A stretch of 44,841 nucleotides of DNA from an uncultured Ignavibacteriales bacterium (lineage in GTDB: Bacteria; Bacteroidota; Ignavibacteria; Ignavibacteriales; Ignavibacteriaceae). Numbering within the stretch: the stretch's first letter is position 1; every line of letters starts with the position of its first letter. The position numbers were made by a program, and so were the translations under genes. The stretch spans positions 1 through 44,841 of the forward strand of contig CAIYTF010000033.1 in NCBI GenBank assembly GCA_903929035.1, read 5' to 3'. Of the stretch, positions 21,808-22,932 are shown in pieces. The notes beneath the pieces were generated by a model. The model had not been told where the DNA came from, ran no database searches, and saw only the letters and a program-made list of their open reading frames with translations.

Positions 21808-22932
21808 ATGAGAAAAATTCTGCTTCCTATTTGTGTTATATTTATCCTTATGGTTATTGGCTGTAAAAAGGATTCAAATCCTGTAACCGGAGCAAATCCT
21901 AATGTTCCTGTATTAACTGCCCCTGCAGATGGAGCAACAGACCAAAGTAATACACCAACATTAACTTGGAATGCTGTTACCGGTGCGGTAAGTTATCATC
22001 TCCAAGTATCTGCAAGCAATACATTTGCTGCAATGATAGTAGATGACAGCACAATAACAGGTACAACAAGGCAATTAATCGGCTTAACGAATAACACATT
22101 ATATTATTGCCGTGTGAGTGCAACGAATAATGCCGGAACGTCATCTTATTCGAGTACACGGAAATTTACAACGATGTCGGCAACACCTGTTCCTGCAGGA
22201 ATGGTACTGGTAAAGAGCGGCACATTTACGATGGGCAACATAAGCGGAGATTCAGACGAACAGCCAACACATTCAGTGACATTAAGCAGTTTTTATATAA
22301 GTAAAACGGAAGTAACACAGGGACAGTGGAAAGCTGTGATGGGCAGCAACCCGAGCCATTTCAAGGGATTAGGCGACAACGGACCTGTAGAGAGTGTAAG
22401 TTGGTATGACTGCATAAGCTACTGCAATAAACTGAGCATAAAAGAAAGCAAGCCACCTGTTTACAGTATAAATGGAAATACAAGTCCGAGCAGTTGGAAA
22501 AGTGGCACGATAGTGCGAGATACAAGTGCGAAAGGCTACAGGTTACCAACCGAAGCAGAATGGGAATACGCTGCAAGAGGCGGTAATCAAAGTCATAGCT
22601 ATACATACAGTGGCAGCAACAATCTGGATAGTGTAGGCTGGTATTATGGTAATTCAGAAAGAACAACACATCAGGTAGGCACAAAGGCAGCAAACGAATT
22701 GGGCATATTCGATATGAGCGGAAATGTATTTGAATGGTGCTGGGATTGGGGTGTCGCATATAGCAGTTCTGCACAGACAAATCCGACAGGTCCATCAAGT
22801 GGAAGTTGGCATCTCCTTCGTGGCGGTTCGTGGGACCTCAATAGTTACTACTGCCGTGTGTCGTTTCGCGGCAGCATTTACCCGGGCAGCAATTACAATG
22901 TTATTGGTTTTCGTGTAGTTGAGGACTTCTGA
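21808..22932 (+). CDS. Lipoprotein with Fn3 and FGE/C-type-lectin-like domain
   Basis: A 374-residue surface lipoprotein candidate. A short hydrophobic signal ends at the lipobox VIGC (C19). One Fn3-like domain follows (about 33-122, [11 protein letters not shown] to SSTRKFTT). Then comes an FGE-sulfatase/SUMF1 domain (about 130-374): [63 protein letters not shown] and GFRVV. It is unlikely to be a working formylglycine-generating enzyme, since the C-terminal SxxxCRVSFRG segment has one cysteine and not the redox pair. The last 35 codons resemble a variable region of a diversity-generating retroelement target. It stands alone with its own promoter. The ligand is unknown. Confidence 0.82.
   Translation: [374 protein letters not shown]
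22830..22914 (+). other. Putative DGR-type variable region in the lipoprotein gene
   Basis: After RGGSW the residues DLNSYY, then CRVS-F-R, then [11 protein letters not shown] and IGFRV follow. The 17 residues in the blocks where known FGE-type variable regions carry template AAY codons are all NNY codons here (GAC CTC AAT AGT TAC TAC; TTT; GGC AGC ATT TAC; GGC AGC AAT TAC AAT GTT). No Lys, Glu, Gln, Met or Trp occurs among them. The framework codons between (CGT GTG TCG, CGC, CCG) look fixed. No template copy or reverse transcriptase is in the window. Confidence 0.4.

Follow-up and report, generated by a model that had tools for sequence, protein, structure and literature searches.

A lipoprotein gene of an uncultured Ignavibacteriales bacterium as a probable remote and ageing target of a diversity-generating retroelement

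The lipoprotein gene and its upstream region

The window, namely, the whole stretch of 44,841 nucleotides analysed here, corresponds to contig C33 of an uncultured Ignavibacteriales bacterium, whose own genome assembly comprises 3.36 Mb in 222 contigs with a completeness estimate of 100%. The assembly is fragmented, and several targets of its diversity-generating retroelement (DGR) lie at contig ends, a number of the target contigs breaking off within the 3' flank that the targets have in common. In the window, we will focus on a single gene and on the repeat at its 3' end:

21808 to 22932, forward strand: open reading frame of the target gene, 374 aa, with a lipobox (VIGC), fn3 and a C-terminal FGE-type C-lectin-like domain (ORF list, Pfam)
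22813 to 22928, forward strand: variable repeat (VR), homologous to the template at C8:7778-7897 (minus strand)
22813 to 22881, forward strand: 5' part of the VR, which together with base 22811 carries every non-adenine difference; apparently old and not homogenised with the present template
22882 to 22920, forward strand: 3' part of the VR, with zero non-adenine differences from the present template

An earlier note, made from the letters of the window, had described the product as a lipobox lipoprotein with an FGE/C-type-lectin-like C-terminus. The reading frame and the Pfam matches bear this out, with an N-terminal lipobox signal followed by fn3 and then by an FGE-sulfatase domain of the C-type-lectin type (175 bits). 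The best match among solved structures is the DGR variable protein TvpA of Treponema denticola (PDB 2y3c), with E values of 1.5e-49 by sequence and 1.9e-23 by fold. In an AlphaFold2 model of the protein (mean pLDDT 70.3 overall), the FGE domain mostly exceeds 80 by block, and the protein is predicted to have the C-type-lectin (FGE) fold presenting variable residues that is looked for in a DGR target. A perfect 12-bp inverted repeat (ACAAATTGTCCT ... AGGACAATTTGT) is located at 21652-21711, some 100 bp before the start of the lipoprotein; it is absent from the other loci of the same genome that were compared.

Codon pattern of the tail

The variable blocks of the tail comprise 17 codons (GAC CTC AAT AGT TAC TAC / TTT / GGC AGC ATT TAC / GGC AGC AAT TAC AAT GTT). 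The claim that all of them are NNY codons holds on counting, and the probability of 17 out of 17 is about 1.5e-5 from the overall NNY frequency of the window, or about 0.010 given the amino acids encoded. As controls, we considered nine FGE tails from relatives without a detected copy of the template found on contig C8; between 11 and 17 of their 17 codons end in C or T, one tail reaching 17/17 and four 15/17. The LRGGSW-CR-R-P-GFR frame with NNY-rich blocks is also present in FGE proteins for which the search for this template gave no copy. The NNY pattern is therefore real and a good hint, but weak evidence when taken alone and not diagnostic, and it was rejected as proof of a DGR since tails without a detected template reach 15-17/17.

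A complete DGR on contig C8

As the earlier note had observed, neither a reverse transcriptase (RT) nor a template lies within the window. Both are found on contig C8 of the same assembly, and the search for a DGR RT that the note had suggested leads to a complete DGR, arranged on a single strand in the following order:

C8:9469-10356, same strand as Avd, RT and template: FGE-domain target, the gene being cut by the contig end
C8:8956-9312: Avd gene (NF033474, 100.8 bits for a cut-off of 80; Pfam bAvd, 71.1 for a cut-off of 40)
C8:7911-9008: reverse transcriptase of 365 aa (RVT_1, 83-84 bits; phrog_1423 RT, E 4e-119)
C8:7778-7897: template repeat, noncoding, directly after the RT

The genome thus possesses a DGR-type RT, Avd and a template with adenine mismatches, i.e. 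the three components by which a DGR is recognised. The RT carries GLPIGNLTSQ, which would fit the [LIV]GxxxSQ signature of DGR RTs, and its closest relatives (about 50% identity) adjoin template/VR pairs. Translation of the template repeat gives LRGGSW-N6-CRVSNR-N4-PD-N5-IGFRVVED. An RVT_1 profile search returned this single RT in the 3.36-Mb genome. A second template for the VR of the window was also considered and rejected, the pattern search of the genome having given one AAY-rich template only. Because a template copy and a DGR RT both exist in the genome, the proposal that the tail is a DGR variable region does not founder on their absence, and it is supported.

The variable repeat compared with the template

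A search of the genome with the tail DNA yields further copies, and BLAST aligns the tail of the gene with the template over 22808-22928 (77%, E 4e-20). A second genomic copy, differing from the tail only at adenines, had been predicted; the copy exists, and 18 of its 35 adenines are changed in the window against 9 of its 77 other bases (Fisher p = 2e-5), the differences being concentrated on adenines but not restricted to them. Similarly, of the AAY template codons expected under the 17 variable codons, 16 are present, and the seventeenth is GAY. The share of mismatches that fall at template adenines is 0.72 in the window (measured over a shorter stretch). Five other targets reach 0.95-1.0, and the nine control FGE genes of relatives without the template, from which template-like similarity is absent, 0.40-0.46. 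The gene therefore carries at its 3' end a VR with mismatches concentrated on template adenines, but departs from the present template at some of the other bases, an exact match there being the mark of current homing and not of origin.

The nine non-adenine mismatches all lie within the 5' 69 nt, with none at the remaining 32 non-adenine positions (Fisher 0.010, for a breakpoint set after the data were seen). With regard to third codon positions, 14 out of 21 in the 5' part of the VR are like those of the C8 target, which is no better than in the FGE domain upstream (80/134), whereas the 3' part is like other targets at 15 out of 16. Such 3' conservation is not a simple protein constraint, because the relics C145 and C31, which have no target flank, show none: in the 3' part of the VR, only 6/16 third positions agree between C145 and the window, and 6/16 between C31 and C158. 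The VR of the window can be read as a mosaic, in which an old 5' half is joined to a 3' half equal to the present template except at adenines. Given its 9/77 non-adenine mismatches, unlike the targets C8, C70, C158, C64 and C201, the VR is probably no longer rewritten in full.

The 3' flank

Downstream of the variable codons, the following features are present:

22921 to 22928, forward strand: VR form of the 3' boundary, GAGGACTT (template: GAAGACTT), a candidate initiation-of-mutagenic-homing (IMH) boundary
22935 to 22950, forward strand: pyrimidine-rich tract AGCCCTTTGCCTTTTT, homologous to AGCCCTTTGCGCTTTAGCCC... behind other targets
22983 to 23002, forward strand: hairpin CGGGAGCA-GATT-TGTTCTCG, a variant of CGGGAGCACGCGTGCTCCCG with two stem mismatches
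23013 to 23026, forward strand: ATTCTGAACAGTGA, likely a degraded copy of the repeat TTGTCTGAACTGTGAT, which follows the hairpin at other target flanks

In a typical target flank of this genome, the VR boundary is followed by AGCCCTTTGCGC... and by one or two hairpins, frequently also by TTGTCTGAACTGTGAT, and the window keeps this series of tract, hairpin and repeat in a weakened form. At the 3' boundary, the window and the other template-matched targets have a G, unlike the template. The pyrimidine-rich tract that the earlier note had pointed out after the stop codon is real, and homologous tracts follow the other DGR targets of the genome. When up to two mismatches are allowed, the hairpin pattern occurs at six places in the 3.36 Mb, all of them 3' flanks of the DGR-target type. 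Four lie behind C8, C70, C46 and the gene of the window; the other two are found where contigs C192 and C139 begin, both contigs starting within this flank. The hairpin loops of this genome are CGCG or GATT. Aligned with the C8 flank, the flank of the window scores 55.5, compared with a maximum of 41 in 500 shuffles and 25.5-29 for three relics. The hairpin at 22983-23002 is a probable homing-site hairpin, and it lies downstream of the VR together with a putative initiation site. Together with the template match, this noncoding flank in common with the other targets is what we consider decisive for a DGR origin of the tail. In other respects, TTGTCTGAACTNTGAT is a dispersed repeat with 17 genomic places (e.g. 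L036:7598-7613, L041:8872-8887 and C139:59-74), and about half of its copies are situated close to a DGR target or downstream of the template.

Other targets and relics in the genome

About nine targets can be matched to the single template (C8, C70, C158, C64, C201, C179, C46, C219 and the window), besides which weak relics are present in the same genome. The DGR would thus rewrite at least six genes other than that of the window. In C8, C70, C158 and C64, 12-16 of the 35 template adenines and none of the 77 other bases are changed, and the values for C201 are 20/35 and 1/77. C179 obeys the adenine-only rule as far as a frame-shifting insertion of 2 nt close to the 3' end of its VR. For C8, C70, C158, C64 and C201, the 37 third positions of the VR that were compared are all identical in the pairs tested, whereas third-position identity in the FGE domains upstream is as low as 44% (C8/C158, 47/107). 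Identical third positions in VRs behind diverged domains argue for homing rather than descent, since repeated copying from one template would alone readily explain them. Old targets comparable to that of the window are C219, C125, C145 and C31.

The target architectures are mixed and include an fn3 lipoprotein, PEGA, FecR and an N-terminus without signal peptide. The latter, MKNKLRDIIVQYGLNVVEE..., is common to the targets C158 and C64 and to the relic C31 (L039, L040 and L045), and has no obvious signal peptide or Pfam match. One template appears to diversify exported and cytosolic proteins alike. C179 (L037, 5293-7170) is a PEGA-repeat target in which the 2-nt insertion turns IGFRVVEDL into VLLVFV-stop, and which has recently been frameshifted. 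C201 (L041, 8944-9342) is reduced to an ORF of 133 aa, where a signal peptide is almost directly joined to the VR and most of the FGE domain is missing; its VR nevertheless departs from the template at a single non-adenine base, as though rewriting continued in the truncated gene. In C219 (L047, 4012-5997), the reverse of the window is seen, with a homogenised 5' VR half (20/21 third positions) and a decayed 3' end and flank, and this target was perhaps retired by loss of its initiation site.

Origin and present state of the variable repeat

We consider it likely that the lipoprotein is a remote target of the single DGR of the genome, once diversified in trans and now rewritten partially or no longer. 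Its remoteness and the action in trans are suggested by the absence of the RT and template from its contig and their presence on C8. The C8 retroelement would transcribe the template repeat, and the Avd/RT complex would copy it, mutating at adenines, after which the cDNA would replace the 3' end of those target genes whose 3' flank has the initiation site, the pyrimidine tract and the hairpin. In the gene of the window, up to 17 residues would thereby have been changed on the putative ligand-binding face of a lipoprotein which, in view of its lipobox, is presumably displayed at the surface, ligand binding being suggested by the fold. The 5' half of the VR may go back to an earlier version of the template, or have drifted since it was last written; with a 3' half that is still identical to the template of today outside adenines, and with a hairpin with two stem mismatches, the VR may now be rewritten over short 3' tracts only, rarely, or not at all. 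The common 3' end could also stem from ordinary gene conversion between paralogues. Counting against a homing role of the hairpin, its GATT loop differs from the GRNA loop of the phage DGR (PMC3240598).

An ordinary FGE/C-lectin paralogue with a merely VR-like tail is hardly credible. FGE proteins without a detected template do share the frame and the NNY blocks, up to the one tail with 17/17, but their mismatch share at template adenines stays below that of the window, and neither the DNA match to the template nor the target-specific flank in common with other targets is accounted for; the template match already refutes this explanation, unless that match is convergent. It is also quite improbable that the VR is served by a different template, unassembled or lost, for which its third bases (AAC AAC AAT AAT AAC AAC ...) would be exact. 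This would explain why four AAY codons differ from the C8 template in the third base, all four still ending in a pyrimidine, but an assembly estimated to be 100% complete holds one template-like sequence and one RT only, and the 3' half of the VR is exact to the C8 template at non-adenine bases.

As to the current activity of the locus, homing may have ended long ago, with a 3' half that owes its young look merely to chance or to ordinary gene conversion by another target, and such complete retirement is possible, albeit doubtful: the decay of the hairpin and of the repeat that follows it, the 9/77 non-adenine mismatches and the similar old targets C219, C125, C145 and C31 would all fit, but the 3' third positions (15/16) set the window apart from the relics C145 and C31, and its flank is still recognisably of the target type, unlike theirs. 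A target that is fully active, with the C8 template regularly rewriting the VR and with 5' differences left by 3'-started cDNA tracts that end early, seems somewhat unlikely. The exact 3' half and the retained tract and hairpin are in its favour, and 5' cDNA integration requires homology between template and target (PMC3240598), so that 5' mismatches could shorten the tracts. On the other hand, in five other targets, at most one non-adenine position of the entire VR departs from the template, the hairpin of the window has two stem mismatches, and in Thiohalocapsa the VRs for which trans activity was inferred agreed with the template at every non-adenine site (PMC10907252). We retain the reading of a remote target which is rewritten partially or no longer. 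A more speculative and, in our view, unlikely extension is that a mixed regulon, comprising at least nine proteins of differing architecture, depends on one template, and that its targets age as 3'-anchored rewriting tracts grow shorter; 5' mismatches would then block long tracts, so that the 5' half is frozen while the 3' half varies until the hairpin decays.

DGRs are among the few means by which bacteria hypermutate chosen genes, and surveys restricted to the RT neighbourhood miss remote targets (PMC8144416). Beyond the earlier note, the analysis adds a single template with about nine targets, and a VR in the window that departs from it in its 5' half only, together with the hairpin mismatches. 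Perfect, partial and relic targets of a single template coexist in this genome and constitute a natural series on target activity and retirement, of which the gene of the window is the informative middle.

Comparison with known systems

Among relatives of the organism, related RTs are present in three genomes of the same family, where the templates are of another C-lectin type. A genus mate (G001, 95% complete) has about 14 FGE relatives; no copy of the C8 template was found in it, and it contains one distant RT only, with a stop codon, so that it gives no informative orthologous tail. The conserved 3' end of the VR was not found in the viral contigs searched, nor the VR of the window in the plasmids searched, and all phage matches of the C8 RT are below 60% identity. 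The closest RTs found (49-51% identity to the C8 RT) belong to FGE-type DGRs from another genus of the same phylum (G352, G201 and G216). Several of these have FGE-type templates, which differ only at adenines from a VR lying nearby, no more than about 600 nt away, but their template motif is CSAR, whereas that of the window genome is CRVSNR.

As in the DGR of Bordetella phage BPP-1 (Mtd; PMC3240598), information passes from template to VR in an adenine-specific manner, Avd and RT are present, the VR lies at the 3' end of a gene, template and VR mismatch at the 3' boundary, and a hairpin lies downstream of the VR. Efficient homing in BPP-1 requires such a hairpin, and the cDNA begins to integrate at the 3' side (PMC3240598). 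The BPP-1 DGR is, however, phage-borne, with one cis target and a GRNA loop consensus in place of CGCG or GATT. The Thiohalocapsa PB-PSB1 DGRs (PMC10907252) resemble the present one in being cellular, with remote targets diversified in trans, FGE-type C-lectin targets and degenerate loci; their targets are described as putative conflict-system proteins, whereas the lipoprotein of the window has no NTPase or effector domain. In Treponema denticola, one RT and one template are associated with up to seven dispersed targets, all predicted to be of the FGE-sulfatase type and most with lipoprotein signals, and additional targets carry "excessive mutations" in the VR (PMC4891356). The window genome likewise has one RT, one template and dispersed FGE-type targets, including a lipoprotein, but belongs to a different phylum, has its template downstream of the RT and shows mixed target architectures. 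The kind of system is already known, and what distinguishes the present one is the number of targets, their mixed architectures and their graded decay.
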